Below are positions 661 to 64,000 of a stretch of 64,000 bases of DNA, one piece after another (positions within the stretch are counted from its first letter, which is position 1; each line of letters begins with the position of its first letter). The translations under genes were made by a program, and so were the position numbers. The notes beneath the pieces were generated by a model. That model was not told where the DNA came from. It did no database searches and was given only the letters and a program-made list of their open reading frames with translations. The DNA is from Watersipora subatra (Eukaryota > Bryozoa > Gymnolaemata > Cheilostomatida > Watersiporidae): NCBI RefSeq assembly GCF_963576615.1, contig NC_088714.1, forward strand, positions 32,272,643 through 32,336,642. Direction: 5' to 3'.

Positions 661-681
661 GTAAGTGAATTCTTCTTTTAG

Positions 682-34893: not shown

Positions 34894-34915
34894 CAGATTA
34901 TAGCACTCTTCACTT

Positions 34916-34921: not shown

Positions 34922-35981
34922 CACCCCCAACTTAACTATAACACACACCCTGGTCACATGATAACAGTTTATAATTCGGCTTTTCTGTGCAAGTTTCACA
35001 CATGTTTCTAATTGTTGTTTTCAAGTTATGGTATAGAAACCTAGAGCCAGCACCAATGCAGCTTTTAGTGATCAAGCTTGACTGGTTTTTGATAATTGAA
35101 TCTTCTTTGTTTTTGATGTATATTTCATGGTAACAACCTTCTTTCTGTGACTTGCTCAATTCAGCTCTTCTATGTTGGAATGCTGAGACCAAGACTCTCA
35201 TTATTTATTCCTAGACCTATATAGCTTTTGCTATATTAACGCTACATTTATAGCAATTCTTTAAATATGACTCCAGCATTTTCCCCAGTTTTTGTGCATC
35301 TATGTACTTCATGACATTATGAACTAAAAATAATATCTAACGGTTTATTTGTAATCAAATTAATCTTGTTATATATATATCATAATTACACAACAAAAGC
35401 ACACAAATCAATGAATGTACGAGTTCTGCTGCACATGGACTGACATGTGAGTTTGGGACTAAAATAGTCTCTCTAATGGCACCGTAGCAAAACAGCGCTA
35501 AGGCTGTTGTGTCATAATGTAATCAGCATTCAGAGAGGTTGTCTAAGATTCAGTAACACTCAGTCCATGTGGCATTAGAAGTCTCTAAAAGAAAGAATAA
35601 TCTCCCCTGAATATATATTTATATCACATTAGCAATCCTCGTTTGAAGTAGCATTCGCCAAACTAACAATTTAATATTGAGTACAGCATACTTTTGCACA
35701 TATGCAATCTATAGTAAATACAAAAACATGCGAAATATAGAGGCCAACGTACAAAGAATGTACAGATGTTGCGATAAAGAGGCGAATAAGTAGCAAAAAT
35801 TAGTTTTCTTTTCCAAGTTAATACTAAGATGAATGCAATTCTATATGTAACAGCTAGAGGTAACATTTGCAGAAACAAAAATTTGCACGCTTATGTAGCT
35901 AAACTGCCATGGTCATAGTAGGCTGTATTGCTAGTATGCCACAGCAATAGTAAAAAGCCGTACCTGTTAACTTTATGTTAA

Positions 35982-36086
35982 TTACGATTGTGGCTCTTTA
36001 AATCTGTAATACTTGATGTTAGCAAGCACCCATGCAGGATAGGCCAAGATAGCAATGGAAATTGCAGTTATCGAAACAACTTTTTC
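35982..36086 (-). CDS. COX8: COX8-like exon 3 (membrane helix, stop)
   Basis: Acceptor ATGTTACAG, then EKVVSITAISIAILAYPAWV continuing LANIKYYRFKEPQS and TAA. One transmembrane helix followed by a short charged tail, as in COX8. Confidence 0.78.
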   Translation of the reverse strand, partial: EKVVSITAISIAILAYPAWVLANIKYYRFKEPQS

Positions 36087-37286
36087 CTGTAACATATAAC
36101 AATGAACACTATATAGTTAAGTCTCCCAATAAATATTCAGTCTACGCCAATTCCAACCAAAATGACCAACGTAGCCTAATGCACAACAGTTGAGTATGAA
36201 GGAATGAGGAAAAATGGCTGGACGAAATCGATGATTCATAAACACACAGATCGGATCATTACGTAAATGACATTTTGTCAGTTGAGTTTAAAATTTTCCA
36301 CAAAAGACCCTCTAAAGAGGTAAAAATTACAACGGAACTCATATTATTCTAAACATCTACTGGATCTCGGTACGCAGTTCTCGTACAGAACAAGACCAGA
36401 AAAAATATTTAAGCTGGTCAGTTTTAATAAAAGGTAGGTAGTATTGGCCAAAACGAGTGGAGAATGCAGGAGACTAAGCCTCCTCTGGTAAACTGCTATC
36501 TCTAACCCTAACTCCCAAAGCTATGTCAATATCACCCCACAGAACTTTCCTAACAAAAGTATGACGAAGTTTAACTCGTCTCTCTTCCAAGGATTCAAGA
36601 GATTTAATTTTTCTTAGCTCAGTGGAACTACTGTTCGATAATCACTAATCGATAACTACAAGTTATCGATTGCAAACCAAAAAGATGTTAGATAGTAAAA
36701 GATAAGTGCGAATATACATACCACTAGGTTATATTAACTTACTATAGTAAATCATTACAATATTTTAATGTCTTTGACGTTGTTGCACTTGAATACAAAC
36801 GTTTAACTGACTTCGTGAATCGCGATGATGTGAATGTGCCGGCATTCACTCCTTATGATTTATACGACGCGTTCGTTAGTATTCGTAACTAAAAACAATT
36901 GATGTTTTTTTCACGAAAGAATATTCTTAAGAACTCGAAATATTATAAAGAATTATAAAAACCCTTATTCTAAACAAGCATTTACCTGCAAAGATGGAGA
37001 AAAGTGCATAACATGATCAAAGTAATTCTGGAAAAAGTTATTTCCAATCAATACATGAAGTATGCAGTAATCAGAACGTTTAGAACATGCTGAGACAAAA
37101 GGTTTACGGGCAATGTTAAAAGACGAGCTGAAACCCTATTTAGTCCTTGACGAAGCAAAGTAGTTAATAGCTTACAGTGGTTGATATGGGGTTAGCTGGA
37201 GGGCCAGAAACATTGGTAGCCTTCTGTATGTTCTGAATAGAGTGCCTAGGAGAAAGCACTGTTCTGCGAATGATCGAAGATAGCAT
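35982..37286 (-). CDS. COX8: COX8-like cytochrome c oxidase subunit precursor, three exons
   Basis: Small nuclear-encoded subunit of respiratory complex IV in the inner mitochondrial membrane. Three exons on the minus strand join in phase 0: 37286-37176 (37 codons), 37027-36986 (14 codons) and 36086-35982 (34 codons and TAA), 85 residues in all. The N-terminus (MLSSIIRRTVLSPRHSIQ) is Arg/Ser-rich without acidic residues, as in a mitochondrial targeting peptide. The last exon encodes one membrane helix ending PAWVLANIKYYR, which corresponds to the family's (P)AGW(I/V)LSHLExYR. Residue count, single helix and position of the Trp all fit COX8. Donors are GTAAGC and GTAAAT; acceptors TTTTTCCAG and TGTTACAG. 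The gene converges on the RGS22-like gene. Another small single-helix mitochondrial protein is possible but less likely. Confidence 0.75.
36986..37027 (-). CDS. COX8: COX8-like exon 2 (42 bp)
   Basis: Fourteen codons, NYFDHVMHFSPSLQ, between acceptor CTTTTTCCAG and donor CTTTGCAG|GTAAAT. Phase 0 both sides. Confidence 0.7.
37176..37286 (-). CDS. COX8: COX8-like exon 1 (targeting peptide)
   Basis: ATG at 37286-37284 is the only start giving a basic, hydroxylated presequence (IIRRTVLSPRHS). Donor ACT|GTAAGC after codon 37. Confidence 0.75.
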
Positions 37287-38762: not shown

Positions 38763-39200
38763 TTAGTGATATCATATCTGTTTTTATTTTTGCGGATATG
38801 ACGTCACCAATACGTTGTATCAATGACGTCATATCCAAAAAAAATAAAAACGGATATGACGCCACTAATACAATGTATTAGTGACGTCATATCTGCAAAA
38901 AATAAAAACGGATATGACGTCATCGACGCAATGTGTTAGTGACGTCATATCCGAAAAAAACCGAAAATGACGTCACTGATACAATGTATCAATGACGTCA
39001 TATCCGGAAAAATAAAATTGGATATGACGTCATTGATACATTGTATCAATGACGTCATATCCGTTTCTAATTTTTGCGGAGTCATTGATACGATGCACTA
39101 GTGACGTCATATCCGTTTTTATTTTTGCGGAGTCACTAATACATTGTATCAATGACGTTATATCCGCAAAAAACGGATATGACATCACTGATACAATATA
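38763..39200. repeat. Array of nested palindromes with CRE (TGACGTCA) motifs
   Basis: Units of type GGATATGACGTCA..TGATACAATGTATCA..TGACGTCATATCC, arms inverted around GATACAATGTATC-like centres and joined by short A/T spacers. Ten perfect TGACGTCA octamers and three degenerate ones occur in about 350 bases. TGACGTCA is the full CREB/ATF palindrome. No coding. Confidence 0.88.
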
Positions 39201-43692: not shown

Positions 43693-44129
43693 TATAATAT
43701 AATTGGATTACAATCTTGTGTTACGGCGCTATAATTTAAAAGGATAATAGGAACATATACGTATAAGGTAAGATACTCTCTCGTACCTATTAGCATTAAT
43801 AAACTCCCTCATACCTAGTAGCTGTAGATAACTCACTATTTCTGACTTTTACTGTCTGACTAACCAGAGTCACTCCTCCGGTTAGTTATCAGTAGTAAAA
43901 ACTCAGTCATCCCATGTTACACATCTTGGTGTACAGTTACGTACACGGGTTGTTTCCTTTAATTACATGTGTATAAGGTGCTGGTTGACCAGCTGACAAC
44001 CATCTAAGCTTTTTCTTTATTTGTTTGCACCTTAACTACTGTGAATACAATTATATCAAATATCCTTGACGGCATGTCAATGTACGTAGAGGTTATTAGA
44101 GATTGCAGCTAGTTTATTGCCAGCAACAG

Positions 44130-44352
44130 TCAAAGCACAAGCATCACAAACTGTCTCACACAGTCTGGTTTTCTGTTCTCCAGATAATCAACTAGATCCA
44201 CTAACGTAGCAGCAACTCGGGTCCCAAAAAAGCGAGCGTATACCACTGTAATGTAAAACTCGAGCTCTTGTGGTAGCAGATTGGTGCAGCTAAATTGTAG
44301 CTTGTCAAGCCTGGAGTTGCGCCCTTTTGACACTAAGGGCGGATGACTATGT
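44130..44352 (-). CDS. Terminal exon with C-terminal helical segment
   Basis: Acceptor TATTATAG, 74 codons, TGA at 44132-44130 and AATAAA (minus strand, 44118-44113) 12 bases later. The peptide (for example ELEFYITVVYARFFGTRVAA, then LVDLVDYLENRKPDCVRQF) reads as a compact helical fold of a type I do not recognise. Assignment to the same gene as the 45339 exon is likely by position but the phase does not join directly. Confidence 0.6.
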
Positions 44353-47300
44353 CTATAATACATAGAACTGGTAATGTAATTGATTGAACATCAGAAAAAG
44401 TAACATGAAAATTTGGTAACTTAACAAATGATAAACACCGTATCATTGATCAGCCTCATAGGCTGATCAAACAGCCTATTCACGACCACATCTATAAAAA
44501 GTTAAATTCAACCTAACTGAGTGCCATATGGGATTCCAAGTAATTGACAAGTCTGAGGAACTTGCTAGAGTGGTAGGTTTTGTAGATAACAGCTGCAACA
44601 GTTCTTTACTTTGAGTCCATAACTGAACATGTAGACTGTGTATATCAAGTTATTACTCTTTGTTCATCAACACTTAGCTCAATATTTCGTATGACAAATC
44701 ACTGTTGAAAATGGTGATGACGAATGAAGCGATTGTTTTAACAGTTAACGATACAATATATTTAGTAACTAACTACTACCTTAGTATACAAGGAATAAAT
44801 ATTGAACACGTAATACACATAGGAATATAGAACATATTACACACGGATATTATCAAATAGATCTCCTGTGCATGTACACTCTATGTATCAACTGTTAAAC
44901 TCAGGTCCCTATAAAGAGTGACTCATTATCTTGCTATGATTCGACCATGTCTTCCATGTAAAAAGGAGATGACAGACAACTCCAACTAAACTGCTGTCAC
45001 TTGAACCATTCACTCTAGTTATGCAATCGATATTATGACTTTCCCTCAGCATCTTTTCAGTTGACGCTTTGTGTTTCAGCCGTGTGAGAATTGCTGAAGA
45101 GGTTTAATCATGATCCATCCCTTCCACCTGTATTCAACAAGGACAGAAGCTGAATAACCAAAACACTGGCTACACGTTTGACGAAATAAAATGTTTCAGG
45201 ATTTCCATGTTCACAATAGCATCTCAAGTTTTGGATTTTTCCCACAAGTACAAACAAAGATTAAGTTAACTGAAGACAGCAATGCTAACTAATTAAGGGC
45301 ATTATTGTACACCTCTTTTAGTTAAAATACTAACATACCAGCCAGCGTCATGATTCTGCTACGCTTAACGTCTCCATCACTAACAGGTGAGCACGACTTC
45401 CTTTTTCTCCTAGCAACTATAAAATGAACACAAATTATAATTGAACTAGTATCTACCTCCACATATTAATGAGACAGAGATTACTAGATTTTCTCATGAA
45501 TTTATAATTATACAGAATAATCTTGCTGAAAGTGCAAAGAATTTTGCTGTTTATACTGGGGTTTTACAGCCCCAGTTCCGGGTAACGCTGGCATCTCCAA
45601 TCTGTTAGATTTTACTCACCAGTAGAAATATAACTTAAAGTCAACTTTAGACAGCAATGCTATCTAGAGTTGACCCTTGTTTGTTCAGACTAATACAGAC
45701 CTGGCCATGTCCAGATATCCAAAAGCCAAAACATAAAAACTTCAGTACTGTACAGTACCACATTGTATGTTAAACAGCCTATATATTGTCTCATACATAT
45801 ACTCCTAGGCCACAATATGGTACAATATGCATATAAAGTATACATGAGAGAGTAAAATATGGTTACACCAGCAATATGTTACAACAACTATAATATTAAC
45901 CCTTTGACAGGTGCAGCAACATTTATGTCGCCTATACTTTGCATTTTCCCATGGGCAAAGTGACATTGATGTTGGAGGGGCAAGCATTTCTTTAAACAGG
46001 TTTCCACATACGTAGAAGTAGCAGACCTGTGTCAAACAAGCGTTTAACAATATTTTACTCTGAGTAAAATATATTCAGCTGATAGAATTACTACTTATTT
46101 AACTTTAAGCTTTAAGAAAAAACTAATAACTTTGGAGCTATAAAACGGACTACGATACGCCATAGCAATGGCGGCTCCTTATGCTAGTACAGTAGACGCT
46201 ACTATGATGTAAATCTCATATAACATAAAAATTTATATAAAGATTTTGCTTCGTACCATGTAAAAAATTCTCTATAAGATAAATTGTCAAGTAGGTGCAA
46301 GCTCTCAAATTGGATTTGAATAACGAAAACATTGTAGTTAGCTTTAAAAATGTTGCTTTATCTTTCGTTGCCCTTAGCAGAAAACTGACGCGCGTATCTT
46401 GTATCTCTGTTGTATATACAGAGTTCCATGACAGTCTAGTTCATTGTGATAGATCGTCAGCTGTTTCGACAAAGCTCAGAGGATATGTAACTGTACAACT
46501 TTTCATAAATTCTTGAAAGACAATTGATTGGTGCAGGTATTACATTGTCAACCTATCAATTTGAATGTCATGAATTTGAGCATCGTCGAATGTTATTTTT
46601 TATCATAACCCTGAAACCCTGAATACGTGACTATGAACATGTAGACAACGTGGTTGTCATGGTAAAATATATCATTGGTTTACATGATCGCAGTCGTACA
46701 GCGTATTTGTTATTAATTTTTCTTTTCAGATTAGCTCTCGCTGTTTAGTAAAAATAAACAAGTTATTGTTGATTGACATCGGAGATGAGTGCTTCCCTCA
46801 AGTTAAGTGATAAGAAAAAGGAGAAATGCTGTCAATACAAACCAATAATACTGCAGTTATGATACAGCCAATAAACAAAAGTTAAGTCTAGTTTTTTTCC
46901 TTTCCGACAAGAACAAAGAAATGAGTTTGGGAAGATCTTGGAACAGATTAGGCGATTTACATTTATTTTAAAGTTCCTATAACATAAAATCCCTACAACG
47001 TAAACAATCCTCAAATGGATTATTTATGTTGCAGGAGTGTCTACTGTATGATGTATCTAAAGAGTATGTTAACACTTGCAAGTCTGGGCCTGAAATAACT
47101 CGAAAATATGAACTTCACCTGATCCTATGCCCAGCAAACTCGAATTCATAGGTTCACTGCGTTTTTATGTACTTCCTATTTACGGAAGATTATGAAACTT
47201 TGGTGGCTTTGTGTCGTATAGGACTTTAGTAAAATTCTAAAGTATCAAGTTGACAGGACTACCGGGTTCTTGAGATATAGTACAAATACCGATGACACTT

Positions 47301-50300
47301 CTATCCGAATGAGAAATAAAAAAAATGGCTGCTGACAGAACACTAGTTCTTTCAAGACTTCCGGTTTAATTAGAATAACAAGATTTTGATCACGTTATGC
47401 GATATATATATTTTAGCGCAGTTAAAAAAAACTTCCAGTTGATAGGATTATTGCCGTATGTTTCGAACTATCAGCCGCTACTTTTTTCAGACGTTTCAAG
47501 TCATGCGGCTTATTTAGAGGTTGCGGCTATTCTGTGGTCTTTTCTTTCACCGCTAGGGTCGCACTTTATGCGGTAAATATTTTCAGTATAATGCAAAAGT
47601 TTCAAGTCGTTTAGAATATTAGTTATGGAAACTGACCGACTGAGAAATGATAAATGGCTGCTGTCAGAACATTAATCTCTAATGTAACCCTGACTGAAAT
47701 ACTTTGTATTGAAGATCAAACACAGGCAAGCTAATTAAAAACTAAAACTAAAAAGCCTCTCCTCAGCAACAAGAACTTAATACTAAACAAGTTGTTTTTC
47801 TATTCTTAAAAGTAGACAGATTTTATCAGACTCGGTTTACACCTACCATTATGTTTCTTCAGTTACCTCTATAACATCACATCTCTCAACGAGTGTGAAA
47901 CAAAAATTACTATATTTACATTCGCAGTGGGATTACATTCACAAAGGATTTGTGTTACTGTAAGTACTTTTACAGTCGATTGAAAGTTATTAATTTAGAT
48001 CTTTGTGACTTCAAATCACTGTGTAGTTATAAATATTATGGCTACCGAGCTTCCCAGACACACGCATCACTGAAACCACGGTAACTACGACGACAACGGA
48101 AAGTTTATTTTGTGGATATTGCTGTCATCAAGTCACTATTAATACCATTTTGTGGAGAATGTTTTGCTGATCACTTTTTTTTCGAGTACGTAAAGATCAA
48201 ACAAACCGTTTTATAAGTTATGATCAAAAATAGTGAACGTAAAACATATCGATGAATTTTTTCGGAATTAATTTGCAAGGAGTGGCGGAACACTAAAAAT
48301 AAATTTGCTGTCCCCTGAAGGTTTAATAGCAGCAGCAACAACAAACAAAACAACAGTACAACACTCTTCGAAGAGACACAGCCGCATCGGATAATCATTC
48401 GTTCCAAGATGTTGTCAGGGCGTTTGAAAGTACGGACAAGTAGTCTGAAGAAGTGGGGATCGACTGTCTATCATGATCATTATATCATAACTCTGTTTGT
48501 TAAAATACAAACATACCAGAGAGTGTCAAGATTCTTCTGCGCTTGGCTTCGTCATCACTAACAGGTGAACACGACTTCCTCTTTCTCCCAGCAACTATGA
48601 AATGAACAGAAATTATAAGGGAACTATACGTAGTAATGAGACAGAGAGATTACTAGACTCTCTCTCAAGACTCAGTAGTTATACAGAATATATTACAGAG
48701 TAAGGTGTGTCATAATACCTAGTACGATTCTATAAGTAGAAGCAATAAGCATATTCAGCTGCTAACTACATGTACAAGATAAAACAACAAATTCTTCCAT
48801 GTACAAAAGTATCTTTCTACTTCGAAGTAGTCTACATATATAAAAAACGGCTTCAATCTACGATGGCAGATGAACTTTCAAAACAAAGCTATAGAAATAA
48901 TTACTGTTTCAGGCGAATAATGGTTCCTTGTTTAATGCGGTCTTGAAACTTCGAAGTACTTGTACATATAGAAAAAACAGTTTAAATTTACGAAGGTAGA
49001 TGGAACTTTGAAAAAACGCCATAGAAATAACTACTGTCTCAGGCTACTTTTAGTGCGCAAAATGAAGCGCGCAAAAGTTTTGCTCGGCCAAAAAATGTTT
49101 GGATGCTAATATCGACTAGTTTAGCAGTGCAGAAAAAAATTTCAGGCCAGAAAATATTGTCAAATGTATTGGACAACTAGAACATGTGCGTTCCATCGAA
49201 GGCAACAATCAAAACGCAGCTTTCTGAGCAAACAAGGAAATATTTTTGTTTTAAAAACGTCAATTTTTGTTTCTGCATGTAATATAAGTAGGATTCGTTT
49301 ATGTCACTTGTTCATGAATATGTATTTGTATCATTTAATAGATTTATTATCGTGCGGGCTTATAAATAGACTTAGAAATATGCAGATTTATAGCAGGTTA
49401 TTTAATGGATCGATGCTCATAACTTCATTTCTATTGCACATTAAAAGCTAGTTTTGGCAGTAAACTGTAGCAAACTTATCGGTGAGTGCAATGAGCCTTT
49501 ACTCAACAATGTTAAATATAGATATAAAATAAACATATGTCTTCAAATTTAGAATGAAATAAAAATAGAAAATGCCAACAAATTGCGAAGGACACAGGCT
49601 ATAATATCAACGCAGGTCAATTGCAAGCAATAGATATTAACGGGTAGAGATATTTCTCAGTTTCTCCATGCACATTCATTCAGAGATCTTCGTCAAGTTA
49701 GAGGTAAGTTTGCAGATTTATTGCATCCAAAAGGTTTAACATCGCTTGACCGAAGAAAGCGCGCAAAATATAGGCGACATTCGCTTTGCAATTAATAGGG
49801 CTTAATTTATCTTCCCAAAATTCCAACTAGCCATTTGAAAAATAGACTGCCAACCTCTATTTAAACGCCGCCTCCAATTGATCCCACTATAGAAGGTTAA
49901 AAAATAGAGCGCCATGGCGTTCAATTAGAAGTTTTACAGTAATAGTAAAATACTAAGACTAGAGGAGTATGTGTTGTGCTTAACCAATCACAGAGCGCAT
50001 GACATTCAACCAATCACAAACAGTGTGCGCTGCGTTTAGACAATTAAAATTAAAATGAACCTTATGTGAAAATAACATTAAACAAATGGTTAGCTGCTCA
50101 GAATAAAATAACAACTAACTGAAACCCACAAAACAAAACAATGAAAAACACTGCAACACACACCAGGGGGAATGCGATCCTCAGAGGATGAATGAGTGAT
50201 GGTGAGACCAGAATCAGAGGAAATCGATGAGCTGTCAGAATGAGGATTATAGAAGGAAAGGATTGAACCACTAGACTCATTGTCAGAAACACGAGGAAAA

Positions 50301-53013
50301 CGTCTTCGTAGTTTCCTACGAGGAAAGACTGGAAGTGTCCTGGTCACGACTCTAAACAAATACACACCTTTTGAGAATATGAACACTGCCTGGATAGTTG
50401 TAACTTTGTACGCATGAAACAAAGAGAACTTCGTATTAAATTTTAACTTGTATCTCTCATTAACTGACACATGAAAGGAATGAAACTGAAAGTTTTCCTT
50501 TCACGATGAAAGCAACACGTTTGAAAAGTTCTAATGGCATTGTATCTAACAGTAAATTATCTATATAAATATACAAAATGGTGGAGTTGTCTTCCACCAG
50601 CCCTCAATTGTGATTGTTAACATTATGATTATATGTAAACCAGCTTTTTCATATATGACAGTTTTTAGTTACAATAATTACAATATTGTATATTAATTCC
50701 ATAAAAAATTGTTGATACTTATAAATAACTCAAGGTGAAAATTTAGCTGAATCACAGCTCATACTTCATGCATGTCTGTACACTTTTTGGTTTGGTGGAA
50801 ATATCAGTGAGCTACCATGGCACATCTAACATACCTGGATCTAACCAGCACCGTCAGAGCCAGCCACTGTTTCCTAGACATCTCACTAATGGTCGCATGT
50901 ACGTGTTGATTGAATTTGTTTCTGGCCTTTCTTTCAACCATCCTATCCAGTACTAGTCTTGTTGTGATGTTCATTAGACGAATAAAGCCCCTATCAGATA
51001 TCTTAGCCCTCTTACATCTTAAAGCAGCCTGTAACAAAAAAAATACATTAAGAAATAGGAGTTAATCTGACTGCTATGCAAGAGAGAGTCAAATCTGTTC
51101 GAAGATTGTTTAGAGAGATCTGGAAGAGAGATATTACACACTATCCCATATGTACAAAACAGAGAACTACAAAAACTATCTTCATGACAGCACATCAGTG
51201 AGAGTTAATGGACAAAAATCCAAATTTATTGCAAATTAAGAATTGTATTGGTATATGTAGTTTGGTTGGCATTTCTACTGGTAAAAGTGAGATACACACA
51301 TTTCTAGTACCGAATGGATGTACTAGTGATAATATTATAACAGATTTGTATCAATTTTCTTACACATAAACCTTTAATTCAGAGAAACTTAGTCATTCAA
51401 GAGACGAGAAAGATGGGCCAGCACTCTTGTAACCAGCACTACCAAATCTTGTCTAGTCATTTGGTTTTTCAGTTAACAAGATATTAAAATAACTTGAACT
51501 ATAGCAACAGCTGTAATCACATATTATTAACATAAAATACAATTAATAACGGAGTAACTATATTATTACAACAGAGGACTATCATTATAAAAACCCCTAA
51601 TATTCAATTATATGAATCACAGAACAAAGACCTAGAATCCAAAGAGTAACAAGTTACACAGACATACCTTTATGAACCTCTGACTGGCCATCATGTTCGT
51701 CACCAACACATCAACTTGGTAGTTAGAGAGGGTAGAGAAGTTCTTAGATCTAACCAAATGTTCATACTCTTGCCCAAAAGTACCCATTCTAATAGCATCT
51801 TTCTGTAAGTGTAAAAACCACAAATTAGTTTACATAAAATCCTTACTGTTAAAGGGTTACAGTGAAGTTATAAAACTAGTACAGATCATATTCTATTCTA
51901 ACAATTTTAAAATATAAATGTATAGCACAGACTAGAGCTGATATCAAGAAACCATCTTGTCAGTTAGTTTGTGATATATTAAGAGTTTTGACAATGCATA
52001 CTTTATGAGATAATTATAAATTGCGTGATGATGTATATAGACTTAGAAATTGAGTGCAGTGCTTTCACTTTACAAAAAAAACCTTGACCATAGTTTGAAA
52101 TGTAAAATCGTACAAACGCACTCTCAGACTTGAAAGGAAGTACACTTGATTGTTTCAGTCACACAATTGTGTATGGAATATGTAAGGCTACTGTGTATAA
52201 GTGAACATACTATGACTGCTCGAACTTCCAGAGGAATAACAGACTCCATGAGCAGTTGAGACACAGAGTTCATTCTTATAGAACCATCTGCAGCACATGT
52301 CTCACTCTTCGAGTACTTCTGTAAAAATAAATTTATATAAATATACATGGAATATTCAGTGCAAATCAATTAGACCAAATTATAGACTATGAAATCTTAT
52401 CAAGTTTAAACAGCATGATTATGTCTTAAGGTTGTTGCATGTTTTGTTTTTATAACTTTTATCCATCATTTTAGAGATAATTCGTTTCTACATTTAAAAA
52501 CTTAAACTGTATCAATTCTGTTTGATTGCATAAGGAGAATATCCTAAATTTATTGTTGAATGAGTTATTTAACTTTTTTCGCTAAACCTGAAAGTCTATA
52601 TACTATTTATTTATCAACACAATGTTATAGTAGTCAAACATTGATACAGCATTAGGTTTTATTAGCATGCTTCTACAAATGGTTTATATAGCGATGAGAA
52701 TAAATTGAACGATATTGAAGTTAAAGCTTAAAAAATAGCACAGTGCAGATAGATTTTCAACTGTACCTCAATAAGAAACTTGTGACTGACAGTAAATTTG
52801 CTTCATTACTAAAAACTTAGGAACAAGTCATCAAATCTGTGTGGTAAAAAGTAGTTGGTTTTTGAAATGTAGGCAACCAGTTTTCTGCCTCAGATTGAAA
52901 GTGTTACAAATATGAATAGGCGTTACTAGCATAATCATGTTACTTACTAGAGCTGAGCTACAAGCCGCTCCTCTTAAACTCTGATCACCAAGACTACGAG
53001 ATTTTCTAGGGAC
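44130..53013 (-). CDS. Unrecognised multi-exon gene with basic, Ser-rich C-terminal half
   Basis: Seven exons join in consistent phase on the minus strand (53013, 52318, 51802, 51028, 50351, 48594, 45416), and a terminal exon (44352-44130) follows. The first four encode about 167 residues of mostly helical, evenly charged sequence (for example SNYQVDVLVTNMMASQRFIK, RGFIRLMNITTRLVLDRMVE). The next is Arg-rich then Ser/Asp-rich, and two near-identical 26-residue exons each carry RKRKSCSPVSD plus KRxRI, resembling nuclear localisation signals. The terminal exon needs phase 2 but the 45339 donor is phase 1, so at least one short exon between them is unresolved (a candidate lies near 45050-45120). 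The 5' end lies upstream of 53013, past the P element. I do not recognise the family. The cellular role is unknown; nuclear location is inference from the basic motifs. Confidence 0.6.
44446..44470. repeat. Perfect 11-bp hairpin
   Basis: TTGATCAGCCT, loop CAT, AGGCTGATCAA. Confidence 0.75.
45339..45416 (-). CDS. Duplicated 78-bp exon, downstream copy
   Basis: Same length, phase and border sequences as 48517-48594, with RKRKSCSPVSDGDVKRSRIM. The similarity extends into about 100 bases of flanking intron (ATGAGACAGAG..TTACTAGA..TATACAGAAT), so it arose by tandem segmental duplication rather than chance. Confidence 0.62.
46190..47046 (+). mobile_element. Mariner-type MITE, 857 bp
   Basis: CAGTAGACGCTACTATGATG at the left and GCAGGAGTGTCTACTG at the right form imperfect inverted repeats flanked by TA. 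A fragment of the SINE family (A-box-like TTGGTGCAGG near 46530) lies inside. Confidence 0.65.
48517..48594 (-). CDS. Duplicated 78-bp exon, upstream copy
   Basis: Acceptor TTTCATAG, donor CTCTG|GTATGT, phase 1 to phase 1, 26 codons including RKRKSCSPVSDDEAKRRRIL. Closely similar to 45339-45416 in sequence, length and splice sites. Because phase is symmetric, either, both or neither copy can be used without a frameshift. Confidence 0.65.
49851..49943 (+). mobile_element. Short MITE related to the 11494 copy
   Basis: Contains TAGAGCGCCATGGCG, TTCAATTAGAAGTTTTAC and AACCTCTATTTAAACGCC, seen in the 11494 element in similar order. Confidence 0.55.
50164..50351 (-). CDS. Unknown minus-strand gene, fifth exon (Arg- then Ser/Asp-rich)
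   Basis: Phase 2 in, phase 1 out. It starts with an Arg-rich run (FPRRKLRRRFPRVSD) and goes on to a Ser/Asp-rich acidic stretch (SDSSSISSDSGLTITHSSSE), typical of disordered regulatory regions. Donor CCTG|GTGTGT is only moderate. Confidence 0.6.
50835..51028 (-). CDS. Unknown minus-strand gene, fourth exon
   Basis: 194 bases, phase 0 in, phase 2 out, acceptor TTGTTACAG and donor TCCAG|GTATGT. Basic and helical, containing DRMVERKARNKFNQHVHATI and SRKQWLALTVLVRS. The low-complexity content is small, which favours a folded domain. Confidence 0.68.
51668..51802 (-). CDS. Unknown minus-strand gene, third exon
   Basis: 45 codons, phase 0 both sides, acceptor ACACTTACAG and donor AAAG|GTATGT. Contains GTFGQEYEHLVRSKNFSTLS. 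Confidence 0.65.
52211..52318 (-). CDS. Unknown minus-strand gene, second exon
   Basis: 36 codons, phase 0 both sides, acceptor ATTTTTACAG and donor ATA|GTATGT. Contains MNSVSQLLMESVIPLEVRAV. Confidence 0.6.
52948..53013 (-). CDS. Unknown minus-strand gene, exon 1 of those visible
   Basis: 22 codons in the only open phase (PRKSRSLGDQSLRGAACSSA), acceptor GCTTACAG, donor CTA|GTAAGT. Its start lies 153 bases from the P-element edge, so the element sits in the intron upstream. Confidence 0.5.
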
Positions 53014-53165
53014 CTGTAAGCAAATTAATTGTGACTACTATGCTACACTTCTAGATGTTTATAAAATGAACACTTATAGAAACCAGTTAGGATCGAGATG
53101 ACGATTGAACACTAGCCTGGCTAGCAACAAACTGATAGGCAGACAAATAAACCCATTGTCTAAAC

Positions 53166-53194
53166 CATTGAACTTAAAACCCCTGGAATGGCAA
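53166..53194 (+). repeat. Left terminal inverted repeat of P-like element
   Basis: 29 bases identical to the reverse complement of 56317-56345; preceded by the 8-bp target copy GTCTAAAC. Confidence 0.95.
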
Positions 53195-53305
53195 GAGGTC
53201 ACTCGCGAGTACGGAAATCCGGTCGACGCCATTATCAGTTAATGTTCAAGTTAATTTCATTGCGTTCAATGTGAGAAAGAAATCTAATTTCAGATTTAAC
53301 AGCTA

Positions 53306-54078
53306 TGGAAGGTCACGATTACACCGCTCAATCAAAGGAACAGACTACTGAGATTGCTACTAATAATTTATGTACGAGAGATAAGGGTGTAGGTGCACAG
53401 TGCTATTGCTATTCCATGAACTGCAAAAACCGCAAGAATGGACTTTTAAAGGAAAAGGCATGACATTTCACAAGTGAGTCACTTCTACTACTAGTTCTAT
53501 TACTATTGCTCAAGTCTACGACTACTAATAGTTGTGCTACTACTAGTTAGTACTGCTACTAGTTAGTTCTACTACACTAGTCACTGGGTGAGTGAGAGTC
53601 GATCAGTGTCACTACTGAGTGTACGAGTTTGACTGTATTTTGTCGGTGACTAGATAAATTTATAAGCTAGTGAGTGAAATGTTCTTCCTTCAGAACGAAG
53701 GTTTTTTATTATTTAAATTTTGATTTTTTTATATTAATATTTTGGAACTACAACCCATTAGGTTATTTCTAAATATTTATATTTGAAGGAAGTGTTTGTC
53801 GTGCTTATAATATTATTTATTTTTGTACCTGGATCTAGCCAGCAGTAAAGAGATAAGAGTAATAATACTATTGTTATTACTACTGTTGCTAACTAACTAC
53901 AGTTTCATTTTAATTTTTAGATTTCCAAACAAAGCAACTGAGAACTCTCGTTATTTACAATGGTATCGCAACCGCAGAAGAGTGAATAAGCCTGATCCTT
54001 GAGCACTTATCTGCAACAAACATTTCAATGATCTATGTTTTGACAGCAGGTTAAAACGTTCGACTGAAGCCATTTAAA
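53306..54078 (+). pseudogene. Degraded THAP domain of P-like transposase
   Basis: An ATG at 53306 opens a frame with two Cys (CYCYSMNCKNR) matching the start of the THAP C2CH zinc finger. An intron follows, 53474-53920 (donor CAA|GTGAGT, acceptor TTTTTAG). The second exon gives FPNKATENSRYLQWYRNRRR, then ICNKHFNDLCFD, which carries the downstream Cys and His of the finger. A frameshift just before the intron (about 53440-53465) and a premature TGA after PDP (near 54000) break it. The THAP domain is the known DNA-binding module of P transposase and THAP9. Confidence 0.8.
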
Positions 54079-54883
54079 GGTAATATTTTTCAATGTTGAA
54101 TGATACTTTTCAATGATTGAATTTAAAACCATATTGTCAAGCACAGTGCTGCAAGGTTGCTCAACTTAAAGTAGCCATACATATTTGAAAGAAATTTAGA
54201 AACCTCAAACAGCACCCAAAACAGTGACAGCTGCCACAGCAATTGCCTATGAATATGTCTGCAGCCTAGCAGTTGTGTGATCTGTTCTCTGTGATTCTTC
54301 ATCTTCGTTTCTGGGATTTAATGTCCAACGCATAAATTATGCTGTCCTTTTTATCAAATGTTAACTGTGTAAATGTTTGTTCATTTCCTAGTTGTTGTAA
54401 TAAAACTACATAATACTCCTGCAAATCATAAATTCCAAATTGATAGCAATAACTTTCAATTTAAAACACAAAACATCTTTTTGGAACAAAAAAAATCAAA
54501 AAAATCGATTTAAATAAAAAAAATCAAATAAAACAATAGAAATCGATCTTTTTGATTTAAAAAAAAATCATCGATTTTTAACAACCCTGCCTACAACACA
54601 ACAGGGTAAGACATGGTGAATCTTTTCATATCAAATAACGGTAATGTGAATTTTAGTTGCAAGTCAACCATTAAGCTTTATGCCTAAGATGGGTGTGAAT
54701 GACTTCTAGTGAAAATTGCTACATTTTCATTTTACATAGCGATATGGTAGCATTTTGAGCTGTTTTATTTTCATTTATTTTATTAGTTGTATTGTTGTTT
54801 ATTAAGGGTACTATGTTTATGTGAATAAGACATTCATTTTTGTTGATTTTATGTAATTGTTATAATTGATGCTTTTGTTTAGG

Positions 54884-55521
54884 GGGTTGGAATAATAATC
54901 CTACTGTTACTCAGTTTAAGGCTACCTTCACAAACTTATCATCAAATGTGGTGCAGAATCAGATGCTAGTAAGACAGGTAATGTTACTGCTCAAAACGAG
55001 ATTCTCATCATACAGGCTACTCCAGAAGTTGATCAGTTTGTGGAACTCAATGATTTCAGATGTCAAATTTCTGTTATAGGTAACAGTATAGTCTATATAG
55101 CTGGCTACATTGTGCAAAAGCTAACTAAAGTGCTGTCGTGACATTGGCCGTCAGTCGCTGGTTACGGACTAAGTCAAATATCCAGTACCGACATCTCTAT
55201 ACTCTACTCAAGCTACAAAACAATGGAGGATTGGTGCTTCCATCAGACGATGTCATCAGGATCCTGCTAGTTGCAGATCAATACTTTCGTATTCATACAA
55301 AGCCAGATCCACTCCATTGTGTGGTGTATTTTATCAATAGTGTAAGGTCTAGTGATGTGTTATGCTTTGGGAAACACCTTACGTATATGGCAGATGGCAT
55401 ATCCAACCACTGCGTCATTGTCAAAAACCTTATTGAGTCGTTTTATGATCCCCGACAGCATCATTATGCTAAAATCCTACACTCAAACTGCAAGGTGCAT
55501 CTTTGTGGCATACAATACTAA
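54884..55521 (+). pseudogene. Degraded C-terminal region of P-type transposase
   Basis: After a TTTAG acceptor, GWNNNPTVTQFKATF matches the GGxxxNPxxxQF motif of P/THAP9 transposases. A one-base shift is needed to continue into KLIIKCGAESDASKTG. Further on come VYIAGYIVQKL and, after another break, LLKLQNNGGLVLPSDDVIRI, both typical of the P-element C-terminal domain. At least two frame breaks are present. The 127-codon open frame from 55138 is only the last piece. Confidence 0.78.
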
Positions 55522-56316
55522 AGTAGTACTTTTTAAAGGCCAGTAACAATATAATCACTGTAATATTCATCTGCAGCTGTTGTTGTGCTGTTATTCCTAA
55601 TCTAATTTAGTTCTAAGAAACTGATGCACCTTGGCTCAATATCCACTTTTATACAAATCTCCTTTTACACAGTTTCTGTAACGTGTATGTATAAGTTTAA
55701 TCATCTGATTACACTAATTCCTGCATTTCCTTGTTTGCATTATTTTGATTATTCTCTATTACAACGGTTTTTAATTTCCGTTTAGTTGTTGCAGTAGTTC
55801 ATTTCATCTTTTACAGATACTGTATTATACATATCATGCATTCATAAGCTATTATCACTTAAATCTTGAAAACAGTTTCGGTTTTGGCAGCATACCTCTG
55901 TGTTGTTTTTATCGAAATACTTCATGTGCTAAGTTTTTCCATATGCATTTATGCATATGTAATATAAATTTTAATATAATGGAACAGTTGTTATTTGCCT
56001 GAATATATCATTTGCTGGGTTTATGCATTTGTAATACAACAGTTTGTACGAGTAACATGGTCCACGGAAATCTATTATACATCTACTTATCATTTGATAT
56101 ATCCTACTCCACATGTTATAAATAGGTTTTCTTCTGTCAGGGCACTCTAAACGTTGTGTTGGAGTAGCTTTCTTTAACACCCAGCTGAAAAATAACTATT
56201 CAACATGTATATTTCTGTCATTTTTCACCCTTTGTTTACAAACGGAAACAGCATTCGATTAGCTCTCCAATATGGCGCACACGTTACGTATTATTATCAA
56301 CGTAAAAGTCACGTGA

Positions 56317-56345
56317 TTGCCATTCCAGGGGTTTTAAGTTCAATG
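56317..56345 (-). repeat. Right terminal inverted repeat of P-like element
   Basis: Mirror of 53166-53194, followed immediately by GTCTAAAC (56346-56353), the second target-site copy. Confidence 0.95.
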
Positions 56346-56390
56346 GTCTAAACCTTAGCTACAGATTCAGCCGGCAGTCAAGGCAGTCTC

Positions 56391-56529
56391 TCAGCACAGC
56401 GATCTTATGGCTTGCTTCTTGACTAGTTTGCCAGACAGCAGCTCATCCATCTTCATCATCGTGTGATTATTTACATAAAGTTTCAATGCTTTTTGATAGC
56501 GAGGCTCAAATGCGGCCTCATCCAATATT
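56391..56529 (-). CDS. Isolated terminal exon of an unidentified gene
   Basis: Acceptor GTTGTCACAG, then 45 codons (for example AAFEPRYQKALKLYVNNHTM, then KMDELLSGKLVKKQAIRSLC) and TGA. Codon use and amphipathic helices look coding. It needs phase 2 from upstream. It does not join the 53013 exon by any good donor, so it is probably the last exon of a separate minus-strand gene. The P element lies 38 bases beyond its stop, in what would be its 3' UTR. Confidence 0.45.
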
Positions 56530-57838
56530 CTGTGACAACAAAAAGATAATATGGTTGTAAACTTTGAGATTAAACCAAGTGTTTGGGCATCAAAAAAGTT
56601 TCTTTAAATGAAAGTACCAAACATTCAAAAACAGATAAAAACTCATTTTACACCAATAGCTTATCAAGTGTGCCTAAGGGCAGTAAATTTAATTTTGTTT
56701 GGTATTCTTTGTGCATCAAAAGTCTTTCTAATGAATTAAAAGTAGGTAGTAACCACTTAAAGTCACAAGCATTGATAATCAGCCGCACAAACAGAGCAAT
56801 ACTATGTCATCCTTGAAAACAATTCGCTGTGATCAAGCTGGCAAATCCAGTTACTAAGATGTATCGTGCTTAACAGCTACTTGGTAGTAACAGTTACCAA
56901 GTCAATGTTACTTGTAAATAAAACATGGCAAAGTAACTTCTGAAAAGTGCAAGGAAAAAAGGAAATAAACTTTGGCAAAAATATCGAGATATGCTGCCAA
57001 ACATTTAAGATTACAAACATATGAAGAAATACATAACAGAACTTACCAATGGCATGATTAAATTGATCTCTATGAATAAAAGAATGCAGTTATGATAAAC
57101 TTTTGCTAGCTTTTTAAGAAAACCAAACAAATATACTGGGTGCAAAGGAGAAATTTGTCTCATTAGACAGTCGCTCTGCTCAACAATGGTATTATTCAAG
57201 ACTGGCTTTACCTCCTTTAAAATAATCGTTCGAAAAAAATCATTTTTCTACTAATCAAAAGGGATGCGTTTCAAATTATACATAAAATTAGAGAAGACAA
57301 CTCTTACTAAAAATGTCGTGTTGTTGACTGAGGAGACAACTCTCTAAAAACTTCAAATATTTGCAACAAAGTTTTGCATAGATTACTAGTTTTAGCAGTT
57401 CGAGACTTAATGCCTGCAAAACTTAATGCAACTTTCTTATTTCTGAGATTTTTATAATATCTTTTCTACAGTTATTAAACACCACAAACTTTGTTGGCCC
57501 ATTATTCTACCTATTATCACTACTAGTTTTTAGTGAACGTTCATTCGTGAGATCTTTTTCTTTTCTTTCAGGTTTCGCAGAGCGGTTTGTATCTTTCCAG
57601 CGGCGTGATTTTGTAACGACGGTTTTAATTTAAACAGCAATATTTGAATTCGTTTTAAAAGTTGTCTGTCCTTTTGAGAAAATTCACTCGGTTTTGCGGA
57701 AAAGTGCGGAACATAAGGCCTTGCGGAACGTAGACCTGTCCCCGCTAAGGAACGTAGTTACGCACTCTAACGATTTAAGGCCGATTGTCAGCTGTGAAAT
57801 TTAACTAGTTTTTGTATTATTTTGATTTTAATATCATA

Positions 57839-57882
57839 ATGAATAAAGGAAAAAAATCAGCTAAAGTAGCAGCCAGAAGATG
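57839..57882 (+). CDS. RFX-like gene exon 1
   Basis: ATG and 14 codons rich in Lys, ending AGATG|GTAATT so the Trp codon is completed by the G at 58776. Confidence 0.6.
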
Positions 57883-60141
57883 GTAATTAATATAAATTAT
57901 TTAGATCAATTCTAATAGTTAAAAATAACTGTTAGTTGATTGCTATAAAACCTAACAGCCGTTCCTGTGAGACATCATTTGATTGTGTGACCAAAGAACA
58001 AACATTTGTAAACTCTTTTTGATGGCATTTACTTGCCACATGTTTCTAATGATCATTGTATAACTTTTCATGTGCACTTAGCCAGTCAAGCAAGTGAAAG
58101 GCAACTTGTCATTCCAATTTTATCCACCTTTTTAGCTTATATGCCAATATATACATTGTGCTATCATTTATAGAACTGTTAATCAGCGTCAATTTTATAG
58201 TTGTTGCAAAATAATATATGCGTTGTAGTCATAGTTATCTTTTCCACATTGCCAAGTCCTATAGATTACTACTATATACATCTATACTAGTCGAATGCCC
58301 GACGGTGCACGGGTGTAATAGAATAATTACCTAATGGATTTGAGTAACTTGCCTGGACAGCTAAATCTACTCAAATCTTTACTAAAACAATACTTGCGTT
58401 TGGGGCCAGCTTATCAATAGTGACATTATGTGTAACGATCAACAGTGCTAGTGCATTAAGCGTGAGTATCTCAACCAATGTAATGAATATTTTCACTATT
58501 ATTGATAGCTATGCTTAGTTGCGAGTGTAGTCCTATGGGTAAGTTTGCTGGCTGTTGATGTTGAGGTTCCGAGATCAGATCTTGTGCCGTGTGGATTTTT
58601 CATCGCTAGATTTTAATTGTTATAACTGGACACAGGGTTTAACAAACAAAGAGACAAAAAAGCTGAAAGACCAACACCGAGATTTATAGATGAATTGCAT
58701 ATATATCGCGCATATATATCGCGCATATATCTGGAACCAATAGTATAACTGCTGTCATTTTTTTATTTGTACCAGGATTAAAGAAAGCTATGCTTTCGGA
58801 AATGCTTCAAGTCACAGAGATGTTCTGGTCAGCTCTGCATATGACCATTATAAAGGTCATTGTTCAGGACTGAGTAAGAGACAGTTTGGCATTGTACTGC
58901 ATAAAGTATTCCCATTTATTGGTACGATGAAAGGACCAACAGTCGATGGCAAAAGAGTGCAAGTTTACTCTGGCTTGATTAGAAAAGGAAACGATCCTGT
59001 CACAACTTTTCCTCACCACATTTTGTTGGACCACAGTTACTCAGCAGTGAAGTTCGCTGTTCAGGATACTCGTGTCATAAATGTAAGGGAAGTGCAAAGC
59101 GCTACAAACAATCTAGAGACAAGTGACATCAAGGACTCAGACTGCGATTTGACATCTACTGTCAGTGATTCAGATTGCGACTTAACTTTTACTGATGAGG
59201 ACTACATACCATTTGACTCATCTACTAACAACAGACCATCTACTCAGACCATAGATATAGACAAAATTATAGGTTGTTTTCCACCAGACCTTAAAAATCA
59301 TCCCAACTTCGCCCAACTCCTCCAAGATGTTATTGATCATTGTTCTAAATCTTCCAAAACAGCACGCAGATGGAAGATTAAGTAAGTTTTTAAAAAAAAT
59401 TTTTCTGTATTTAATCATTCTAATAAAAAAATAGTTGATACAGTGACAAGTACTAAAGAATGCTTAACAAAAACTTTATTCTTTTATGTGGATTCCTGCT
59501 AAATTAAATACTTATCCTTACGATGTTTCGTGGACATGGAAAGACTTAAACCAATTGTGGATTGCAATCTTGGACATGGAGATCAATGTGTTAGACTTAT
59601 AAAGGCTCCTAATATGACTACCTACAGATTTACAAATAGTTGCAGTACCAACGCTCAAGTAGCTGGTAATTGACACTCCCAACAGTAAAATTTTTGGTAA
59701 GAGATTTTTCACAAATAAATTTTTGTATATCAACTTGTTGAGCTAGGTTTTGGAATACTTTTTATTCATCTGATGTCATGGCTGCTGTATATGGTTTTCA
59801 ATTTAATGGCACTACTCAATAGGAACAATCTATTGCAAAAGGTCTCTAAGCATGTATAATAGCATTTTTGTCGGATTTTTGCAACTGCAACTAATACTTT
59901 TCATACTCAAAAAATGAATTGCTTTTATTCACAGTTTGTTTTCTAATAAAGCGTGCTCACCAATTGAATCTTTGAGTCTGTCTATAGTATATTTCTTGGG
60001 AGTTATGTTTGATATCAAAAAAACATTGGCCCACATTCATTTGTATAGAGATCCCTCCACTGTGCAAGAAAGCACTTTGAATAAAACAATAAAACTCTCT
60101 CTTTCTTCTTACCATCGCCTATCGCAACACTCGGAGTACCG
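57839..60141 (+). CDS. RFX-like winged-helix protein, three exons
   Basis: Exons 57839-57882, 58776-59381 and 59935-60141 join in phase 2 at both junctions, about 285 residues. The start ATG opens a basic peptide (MNKGKKSAKVAARRW) that runs straight into the domain. Residues about 14-80 follow the RFX DNA-binding layout: W..ESY, then SSAYDHYKGHC, then QFGIVLHKVFPF and VQVYSGL, corresponding to LY..Y...C, FGK.I...FP and YHY.G. The RRLGTRG recognition loop is replaced by MKGPTVDGK, so DNA binding may differ; ARID2-type RFX-like domains are also divergent here. A long acidic Ser/Asp region (DSDCDLTSTVSDSDCD) follows. At the end, TACCG|GTGAGT can splice on, or TGA at 60143-60145 can stop the protein. 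Family call is fair; function is unknown. Confidence 0.65.
58287..58735 (-). mobile_element. Non-autonomous Helitron related to the 18316 copy
   Basis: On the minus strand the 3' end is a hairpin (CCCGTGCACCGTCGGG) followed by CATTCGACTAG and then T. The 5' part shares GGTTCCGAGATC and the AAATCT..TAT region with the 18316 element. The exact 5' border is uncertain. Lies in intron 1 of the RFX-like gene. Confidence 0.7.
58776..59381 (+). CDS. RFX-like gene exon 2 (domain and acidic region)
   Basis: Acceptor TTTGTACCAG, donor ATTAA|GTAAGT. Contains the winged-helix-like segment and two copies of an SDCDLT motif. An Ile/Asp/Pro-rich stretch near the end (IDKIIGCFPPDLKNHPNFAQ) suggests a second small helical unit. 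Confidence 0.7.
59935..60141 (+). CDS. RFX-like gene exon 3
   Basis: Acceptor TTATTCACAG, phase 2 in. Encodes KACSPIESLSLSIVYFLGVM and then a basic stretch to SEYR. Resembles a BEN-type or other small helical module only vaguely; not assigned. Confidence 0.55.
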
Positions 60142-60145
60142 GTGA

Positions 60146-63100
60146 GTAAGACCTATTCAATAGATGGTAAAAATATACATGTACAAAGCAATAGGTTAAT
60201 AATAATTATTATCAATCAAGCTCAAAATTCTTAGAAATATATAACTTCACTATTTTACAGCTGTTTGTGTCACTTTTGTTTATAAAAAATACATGCATAT
60301 CACTATTAAAATGTTGTAATTTAAATCGTTTACACCAGGAGAAAAATCAATTTAAAAAGAAGTTTATCAATTTCATATATCAAGTGCGCTAGTCCTTGTG
60401 TAGTGAAATCATCATCAAATGCTCATTATGTCTCGAGTCTCAAATTTTTACAAGACAATGTCTCGAGTTTCGTCTCAAACTTAAAAAGCCTGTCTTGTTC
60501 CACCTCTATTTGATGATGCATGAGAATTACATTATTTTATGAAACTTTGCTATAATATTTTGAAACATAAAGCGAGTTTGAGGCAGCAAGCACTGAAATG
60601 TTATAACATTATATATAGATAATAATATTTAAACTTACCACATTAATAATAATATTTTATTACACGTTTGTTTTGATATACTTTTAGCCCAAATATAGAC
60701 AAATTTTAAATAATTAGGTTGTATGGATGTGCATTCATATAGGTAGATATTGTAGTTTTGACACCTGTAGGGGAGTTACAAATGTAGCTGACAAACTAAG
60801 CTTACAAACAATGTAAGCTGTACCAACTTAACCATTAAGCTACATGCAATACAATAGATTTTTTGGGTAAATAGTCATTACATAGGTTAAAATACTTGCG
60901 CTGCTTGCTTGGGGTTAATAACTAGCACTGTTGACCCACGATTATTAAGCTGGCCCAAAACGCAGGTATTTTTTAGTAAAGATCTAGCTTCCCAGGTAAG
61001 TTGTTCAAATGCATTAGGTAAATATTTTATTACCTGTGCATTGTTGGGCATTCAGCTAGTTGTTATATAATAGCAACTAAAGCATTGTTTTGCTGTAAAC
61101 ACATTCTGAAAATAGGACAAACATCGGAGCTGTTATATCAAATGTGTTCATATTTTATAACATCTAACTTAAACCTAGCATTAACAATGGTTAGCATGTT
61201 CACAGTATTGAAATATCCGTACAGTTTTCTACGCATGTACATGTAGTACTACTAATATTTGTAATGTACAGGTGATTTGAAAACATGTAATTCTTGTGCA
61301 TTGCATTAATAAGAATGTAGAAAATGAGAGTAATCATTCAAAAAGGGCATTTAACTTTGTAAAGAGATACTTTCCAATTATTTAAAGTTTTATGGAAAGC
61401 TCTAAGTTCTACCTGACCTTTGTTTACAAGTATAAGTCAGGCTTATCCGCTCCTTCAGATATACATCATGGTTACATCTAACTGGGGTCATTGTGATTAT
61501 TAAAGGATAATCAGAATGACCCCAGGTAGATGTTATCATAACAGTTATTTCTAGGGCAGATAAACTTGATTTACATTTTATATGTATAACGCATTTATAT
61601 TTTAAAGCAAGTTTACATTTAAATAAATTAAAGACATTGTTCCATTGAAAACCATGTTGGTGATGAACAATGATAGCACTAATGAGATACTGTGTATGGT
61701 TGCTCTATATTGTTCGGAACACACCATTATATTATATTACAGGCAGTATTTTGTCTGTCAGCTGTTGCTTTAGGATTCTCCACTTTAATACATTTTCAAA
61801 AACTTGACTGAAAACTGCTCTTACTGGTTCTTCTTTAGACTAACCACTTGCTACTTCTGTTGTATAATCATGTTAGTGGGCCACAGGCTATACTGATGTC
61901 ACGACAGTTACAGGTAATTATGAGAAGTCAAACAAAGTCAGTGATATAGTAGTGACATATTAGAAGGATTAAAACTTGGTATAAAGGCTAGTGGAGGAGA
62001 AGACCAGTCTCTTCTTTGCTACACCTGATATAAGTAGACCATTATTTATACAACAACCCCAAATCTAGTAGCACTTATAATCCATGCCTTGATCTATTAT
62101 GTACTGTATATACAAATAAAGTGCAAGATCTGCACGTTTTAATGTATGACCTCTTCATGCACTTAGCAAATGTTGAAAATATTTCTCCTTTATTTCTAAT
62201 GGGGTGATGAATCGTACAAAAAGTGAAAATGTACAGCTCCATATCATTGACATGATTATGAAATAGGTAGATAATTGGTAGTTGAAACTGTAACAGCATA
62301 ACTTTCACGTTTCTCTATATAAAAAACCATAGTGGTCTAGAATACCTGACCTGTAAACAACAAGTTGCAGTTCAATTTCCGAAAAAAGGCCACCAGTGGT
62401 GAAGGAATGGCATTCAACCTTAAATTGCTCTCCGTAAGGAGACCATAAAGCCAAGACCATAAAGACATTTTATAGCAATGCTCTTACAAATGCGCACGGC
62501 TTCAGCTTGCGGCAAATTAAGCAGATGCTATGCTCACCTTCGAGGGATTGCTAACACACATTCCGAAGCCATAGTGATGTCAGAGAACATTACCAGTAAA
62601 CATTTTTAGTGCATATGAAAATATTCTTCACAGCTGCACCGACTAATGGCTTGCTGTGAATACTGAATAGGGAACACACATCGACATAGCAGCATATTTG
62701 TTAACAATGCGCTGCCTTCTCTTAGTACTATGTCCTGTGAGCGCATGGACGATAATGGTTCTCCCCACTTCCTATAACCATGGCTTTTCTTGGCAGGTTT
62801 TAACAGTGTCTTCCATTATCAGTGCCATTGCTTTCTGTTGGGTGTTTTTATTGAGACACTATCTCTGGCTAGCAGGCCATTGGCTAGCATAGGAGCTCCT
62901 CCGCCCTTTGTCAGGTTTTGCTTTGCCAGGTTGCTAGCCACCCTCCTCATCCACGATGAAACGCAGATGGGGGAGATGGTTTAGTCGCTGACGACTTGAC
63001 CACAAGATGCTAAAAAACTGTTAACCAGTAATTAAATAGAATTGATACTTCACACTAGCCAAAAATCCTGATTTGTTATAGTCACAAGTCAAGACATTCA

Positions 63101-63438
63101 AAGTCAGTCACATGTGTATAGAGCAGTATACCTGCGTGACTGTGTAACGCTCATTGCTGTAACAATGCTATATTGCTGTCCAAGATGGCGCCACATCTGC
63201 TAAGCAGTATAATATGTATAAAACATGCTAATACAAAACTAAAGATTTCAAACAGATTGTAAGTCTAAAAATGGTTTCAGGCAAATAATGCCAAAAGTAG
63301 AGCATAAAAAATTAACAAAAGGTGTTAAGAAGGAAATTATCATATTTGAAAATATCGAGTCCAAAAGAGTGAGATCACGTTAAAAACCATTTCCTATGCA
63401 GGTACAGAAGTAATCAATGATTTCCCAGTAAGCTGTGT
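60146..63438. other. Region without recognised genes
   Basis: Apart from the 61468 hairpin element, no exon-like stretch with splice context was found on either strand. Two AAGATGGCG/AATATGGCG-like YY1-type octamers occur nearby (63185 and 56272) but are too short to mean much. Confidence 0.45.
61468..61545. mobile_element. Hairpin MITE around a 5-10 base centre
   Basis: ATGGTTACATCTAACTGGGG and, mirrored, ACCCCAGGTAGATGTTATCA with partial complementarity through TCATT..GATTATT. Confidence 0.6.
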
Positions 63439-63627
63439 TTAAACAGTCTTAGAATAACACACATTTACAACATCTCCAAATATTTGTAAAATGAGATCAA
63501 CCCTATTAACATAGCGTACAGATAGCTGAGTGTCTTTAATTTCGATGGTTGGCACAATGCGAGCTAACAATTGACAGCCATTGTTATTCTCCCCTGCCCG
63601 GGTATCATCTCCACAACTAAGGGACTT
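63439..63627 (-). CDS. Possible terminal exon of a gene entering from the right edge
   Basis: Acceptor TTATGGTTGCAG, 62 codons (SCGDDTRAGENNNGCQLLAR, then IVPTIEIKDTQLSVRYVNRV and DLILQIFGDVVNV) and TAA. Amphipathic pattern and splice site suggest coding, but no upstream exon was found within the last 370 bases. Family not recognised. Confidence 0.35.
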   Translation of the reverse strand, partial: KSLSCGDDTRAGENNNGCQLLARIVPTIEIKDTQLSVRYVNRVDLILQIFGDVVNVCYSKTV

Positions 63628-64000
63628 CTGCAACCATAAAACACTACAATCATGCAAACTAACCTTTCTGCGTATAATAAGCACTTAGGAAAAAATGCCT
63701 TATCCACATCATGATGACCAATCTGCAGAGTTAATGATCAAAAAAACACAAGGCATATGAAAATTTTCTTTTTAACCTTTATAAAGGTTAACTTTACCAT
63801 TTTCTGAACTTTACTTGGACTGCATCAAGATTTATCACCCCTGGCTTGAAATTTCCAAGCAATGGGAGATAGTTTGCGAGGTATAAATTTAAATATTTTC
63901 TTTTCATCTAGTCTTGAACAAAACTTGGTGTAATAAAAAGTGATTTTATTCACATTATACATTTAATCCTGTAGCCCGAATTACCATAATCTTATACCTA

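Follow-up and report, generated by a model that had tools for sequence, protein, structure and literature searches.

What kind of mobile element lies at positions 53158-56353 of the window (that is, the whole stretch of 64,000 nucleotides that was analysed), and did it arrive there whole or already broken? Judged from its sequence, the stretch 53166-56345 is very probably a defective copy of a cut-and-paste element of the P superfamily, from which the middle of the transposase is missing. Its parts are as follows.

53158-53165, no strand: left target site duplication, 8 bp, GTCTAAAC (direct repeat)
53166-53194, plus strand: left terminal inverted repeat, 29 bp, starting CATTGAAC (29/29 against the right end)
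53385-53473, plus strand: relic of THAP exon 1 with the first zinc ligands and a frame change inside, mapped from 53385 (Pfam and structure match when joined to exon 2)
53474-53920, plus strand: inferred intron, GT...AG, phase 2 (sequence; codon position as in human THAP1 intron 1)
53921-54079, plus strand: relic of THAP exon 2 with an in-frame stop, followed by a donor-like GT at 54080 (Pfam THAP match on its own, below cut-off)
54080-54882, plus strand: AT-rich (29.5% GC) and intron-like, in the place expected for the missing transposase parts (no Pfam match to them)
54883-55518, plus strand: relic of the transposase C-terminus with the GGWNNNPTVTQF motif, then YIAGY and GGLVLPSDDVI, and at least one frame change (PF21789; PF22824 below cut-off)
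55519-56316, plus strand: right part of the element, apparently non-coding (no plus-strand family match)
56317-56345, minus strand: right terminal inverted repeat, 29 bp (29/29 against the left end)
56346-56353, no strand: right target site duplication, 8 bp, GTCTAAAC (direct repeat)

Ends, target site and neighbourhood

The element proper is 3,180 bp long and is flanked on both sides by the exact 8-bp direct repeat. Its terminal inverted repeats, with the sequence CATTGAACTTAAAACCCCTGGAATGGCAA, are identical at all 29 bases, and the likeness ends at base 30. An earlier note on this DNA had described perfect 29-bp ends and an intact 8-bp target duplication, and both were found exactly so. Note that the 37-nt inverted pair with 95% matches given by the repeat finder consists of the 29-bp ends together with the 8-bp duplication. 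When the whole window was scanned for exact inverted pairs (at least 12 bp long, 100-15,000 bp apart, with an exact 8-bp flanking repeat), the pair at 53166 and 56345 was the only one found. With up to three mismatches allowed, an 18-base piece of the end matched only the two ends of the element, and two matches were seen in none of 100 shuffles; neither the 18-base nor the 19-base pattern gave a further match in the window at that tolerance. Since two matching ends are accompanied by an exact 8-bp duplication, it is a whole unit that was inserted at 53158-56353.

Relatives were also sought in other collections. An exact scan of viral contigs with the 18-base end gave no match, and the same scan of prokaryote genome contigs gave 8 stretches, where about 7.5 are expected by chance (257 billion bases, two strands, equal base frequencies). 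Each of the eight is identical to the 29-bp end over 18-20 bases and then diverges, and in no case does the stretch contain an inverted second end. For a 130-residue piece of the C-terminal relic there were 11 pattern matches in viral contigs, none of which was confirmed, and phage records gave no match. As viral, phage and prokaryote collections are not animal genomes, these negative results say little.

The surroundings of the element contain several other features. On the minus strand at 56391-56529 there is an exon-like frame that follows an AG acceptor, with its stop about 37 bp from the right duplication. If this frame is real, the element would lie just downstream of a minus-strand gene or in its 3' untranslated part. 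The only solved structure matched by the frame is CTPR3Y3, over 13 residues (E = 0.00034), and no stretch of it passes alone. A tandem array of 48-bp units lies at 17266-18302 (21.6 copies, 96% matches), with one frame open over 330 codons, and at 38793-39166 there are tandem arrays with unit lengths of 51 and 58 bp, in the consensus of which a palindromic sequence of the TGACGTCA type occurs. A single-frame Pfam match to the RGS domain was found on the plus strand at 5246-5506 (E = 0.0019); it lies below the cut-off, as do the remaining matches of that scan, with E values of 0.012-0.15. A further RGS match on the plus strand, near 30500, came from a read-through of 27,000-36,900 (E = 0.011, below cut-off). 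Perhaps both are exons of one long plus-strand gene with an RGS domain, and such weak matches would fit an animal genome. A read-through Pfam search of 1-9000 on the plus strand gave nothing at E 0.1 and did not recover the match at 5246-5506. The minus strand of 44,000-53,157 and of 56,354-64,000 likewise gave nothing at E 0.1, solved-structure searches with two pieces of the window reached a best E of 0.29, and Rfam had no match in the window.

Remnants of the transposase

On the left side of the element, the THAP domain can be seen only when two exons are joined. Exon 1 alone (a 62-residue frame) has no Pfam match, and exon 2 alone matches the THAP profile at E = 0.00088 (20.4 bits, under the cut-off of 23.9), as does the unspliced six-frame translation at E = 0.0029 (18.8 bits, same cut-off). 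Read through together, the two exons match at E = 1e-8 with 36.3 bits against the cut-off of 23.9, which bears out the THAP relic that had been proposed for the 5' side. The solved THAP1 domain (2jtg) matches the read-through at E = 3.7e-6, and in the matches to the solved THAP1 and THAP2 domains the cysteines and the histidine are aligned.

The predicted intron runs from the GT at 53474 to the AG at 53919-53920, with exon 2 extending to about 54079, and splits the lysine codon of FHK-FP after its second base. In human THAP1, intron 1 is described as following coding base 71 (PMC4049367). Base 71 lies second in codon 24, and the lysine of SFHKFP is residue 24 in the 2jtg numbering. At this one broken locus, the putative intron would agree both in position and in phase with intron 1 of human THAP1, and this agreement supports the exon model of the relic.

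On the right side, the C-terminal relic, which follows an AG at 54881-54882, reads GGWNNNPTVTQF. Translated in one frame, it matches the profile TNP-like_RNaseH_C (PF21789) at E = 1e-5 with 25.9 bits, above the cut-off of 24, and the match covers positions 19-34 of the 35 of the profile, that is, only the end of the domain is present. The same profile stays under its cut-off in a longer read-through (20.4 bits) and in the unspliced six-frame search (E = 0.00026, 21.3 bits), and so does THAP9_C (PF22824) in the longer read-through (E = 0.0031, 17.6 bits, cut-off 24). Both C-terminal motifs named by the earlier note, GWNNNPTVTQF and GGLVLPSDDVI, are present. For the 130-residue stretch with GGLVLPSDDVI, which presumably resembles P transposases, no significant match was obtained (best E = 0.14 in Pfam and 0.48 among solved structures). 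A structure of the fly P transposase has reportedly been published; at E values up to 10, the C-terminal relic matched no transposase among the solved structures, its only match being a tRNA-synthetase-associated protein (E = 0.48 and 1.2).

In a six-frame Pfam search of the element at E values up to 1, none of the dimerisation, helix-turn-helix, RNase H N-terminal and GTP-binding parts was found, nor was an RNase H of the P type with its GTP-binding insertion and three catalytic acids. On the minus strand there was a match to DUF3874 at chance level (E = 0.12). As the six frames yielded no other domain of a P transposase, the greater part of the catalytic protein is lacking, in agreement with the absent middle that had been suggested. 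A deleted copy is expected to lack the RNase H N-terminal and GTP-binding parts; their absence rules out that the element is autonomous, but not that it descends from an autonomous P element.

The AT-rich middle also contains, at 54470-54600, repeated units of the AAATCGATTT type that end in AACAACCCTG, an ending that resembles the end of a hAT element. No partner end with a duplication was found for it. A nested hAT remnant between CAAGGTTG at 54152-54159 and CAACCCTG at 54582-54589 was considered and rejected as a defined element, because the 8-base flanks of the two are not the same.

The remaining coding parts carry three to five disablements. Three are clear: the reading frame shifts inside THAP exon 1, THAP exon 2 is interrupted by an in-frame TGA, and near 55129-55141 a frame change is accompanied by a stop. 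Two more are ambiguous, namely a TAA where THAP exon 2 ends and a frame change near 54978; in place of the latter there could be a gap of 38 nt with GT...AG borders that keeps the frame, although an animal intron of that length would be very short. The frameshifts and the stop that had been read from the sequence before can thus be recognised, three of the lesions clearly and two with doubt.

Superfamily and history of the copy

The assignment to the P superfamily, which the earlier note had also made, rests on the split THAP domain together with the C-terminal motif of a TNP-like RNase H. Both the inverted ends and the target site duplication of 8 bp agree with it. An exact subterminal inverted repeat was searched for in the inner flanks of about 600 bases, and the longest was 9 bp, which is chance level (260 of 300 simulated pairs reach at least 9 bp); such repeats are not known to be universal in P elements.

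A different superfamily, either hAT or a Kolobok or Harbinger element bearing a THAP domain, seems very improbable. hAT elements also make 8-bp duplications, but they have ends of the CAGGG type, whereas the ends here begin with CATTG, and no hAT domain was found in the six-frame Pfam search of the element. THAP domains do occur in other transposons (Kolobok, Harbinger); against these stand a duplication that is neither TTAA nor 3 bp and the RNase H C-terminal match, whose profile is presumably a P-type one. In the oyster, a THAP domain together with a Harbinger-derived domain has been reported (PMC10027918). That the stretch is a domesticated and expressed THAP gene instead of a transposon relic is scarcely credible: plausible splice sites would connect both THAP exons to the C-terminal part, but there is an in-frame stop, both coding parts have frame changes, and inverted ends and a duplication flank the relic.

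If the element is a deleted P copy, how did it come to lie here? When a P element is excised and its gap is filled back only in part, the usual outcome is an internal deletion. The middle would have been lost through an internal deletion, and the deleted copy would have been placed here by P transposase from another, longer copy, with the small lesions arising partly before and partly after the insertion. We favour, with some reserve, this mobilisation in trans at 53158-56353. The earlier note had argued for it, and hence for an autonomous relative, from the perfect ends around dead coding sequence; under our decay model this argument appears plausible, yet weaker than it was stated there.

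The model describes neutral decay after insertion, with 884 coding bases, 74 bases of ends plus duplication and assumed indel rates of 0.08-0.20 per substitution. At 2% divergence, at least three disablements are reached with P = 0.25-0.64 and at least five with P = 0.03-0.24; the chance that the ends and the duplication are still unchanged is 0.17-0.20. Over 2-3% divergence the respective values are about 0.25-0.87, 0.03-0.55 and, for both ends and the duplication, about 0.07-0.20, and at 4% they are 0.67-0.96, 0.26-0.79 and 0.03-0.04. Therefore, with three lesions counted, the small lesions alone do not require that the copy was dead before its last jump, whereas with all five the model comes under greater tension, which would somewhat favour mobilisation in trans.

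On the other hand, an autonomous full-length P element may have been inserted here and may then have lost its middle in place and decayed, never being mobilised as a defective copy. We regard this as unlikely, though still to be reckoned with. A neutral decay of 2-4% is compatible with three to five disablements in about 884 coding bases, and at that level, with the assumed rates, the ends and duplication would remain intact with P of about 0.03-0.20; but a large deletion in place is needed here too, and deleted P copies in flies arise more commonly by an internal deletion that precedes transposition. Note that this course of events contests the step of mobilisation in trans only, and its probability overlaps with our high confidence in the identity of the element.

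Comparison with known P elements

P-type elements are described as being moved by excision and insertion, through a transposase that contains a THAP domain and produces 8-bp duplications, and in flies full copies of 2.9 kb are accompanied by deleted copies of 0.5-2.8 kb (PMC7776569). The P element of Drosophila melanogaster and its deleted copies (KP and others) share with the present copy the 8-bp duplication, perfect inverted ends of about 30 bp and an N-terminal THAP domain, and the deleted ones also the missing middle (PMC7776569). The fly ends are close in length, with 31 bp against 29 bp here, whereas the fly element has 11-bp subterminal inverted repeats and no exact ones were detected in the present copy (PMC7776569). 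The present copy differs further in the predicted intron inside its THAP domain, and its C-terminal relic matched no transposase structure. The end sequence of the fly P element is presumably different from the 29-bp end found here.

The view that P copies with full ends are less documented outside Diptera, which the earlier note had expressed, is right in part, but zebrafish Pdre2 and several internally deleted Pdre copies with 8-bp duplications have been described (PMC10983969, PMC7776569). The 8-bp duplications, the ends that start with CAT and the occurrence of internally deleted copies, which zebrafish shows for a non-insect animal, are as in the present copy; Pdre2 differs in having 13-bp ends and 12-bp subterminal repeats, against 29 bp and no exact subterminal repeat here (PMC10983969). 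The P-MITEs of Anopheles gambiae are 205-2450 bp in size and have P ends and an 8-bp duplication, as here, around an interior that is unrelated to P (PMC1562414); the present copy exceeds them in length and retains recognisable pieces of the transposase on either side. By its sequence, the copy fits an ordinary, internally deleted member of the P group, with competent-looking ends and no enzyme. P transposons of Ciona are reportedly the subject of a published paper.

In summary, the locus contributes one more P-element copy whose ends and target site are exactly delimited, in a genome that is probably that of an animal; anything novel would have to come from the host lineage and from an autonomous partner. 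A bolder reading, which we hold to be less likely than not, is that the host is a non-dipteran animal, possibly of an early branch, where a P family with an intron at the THAP1 position and ends of 29 bp was recently active and still has a working autonomous copy in that genome. The shared place of the intron weakly suggests that the THAP domain of the transposon and human THAP1 come from one intron-bearing THAP gene; if true, such a common ancestry would bear on the passage of THAP domains between transposons and host genes.
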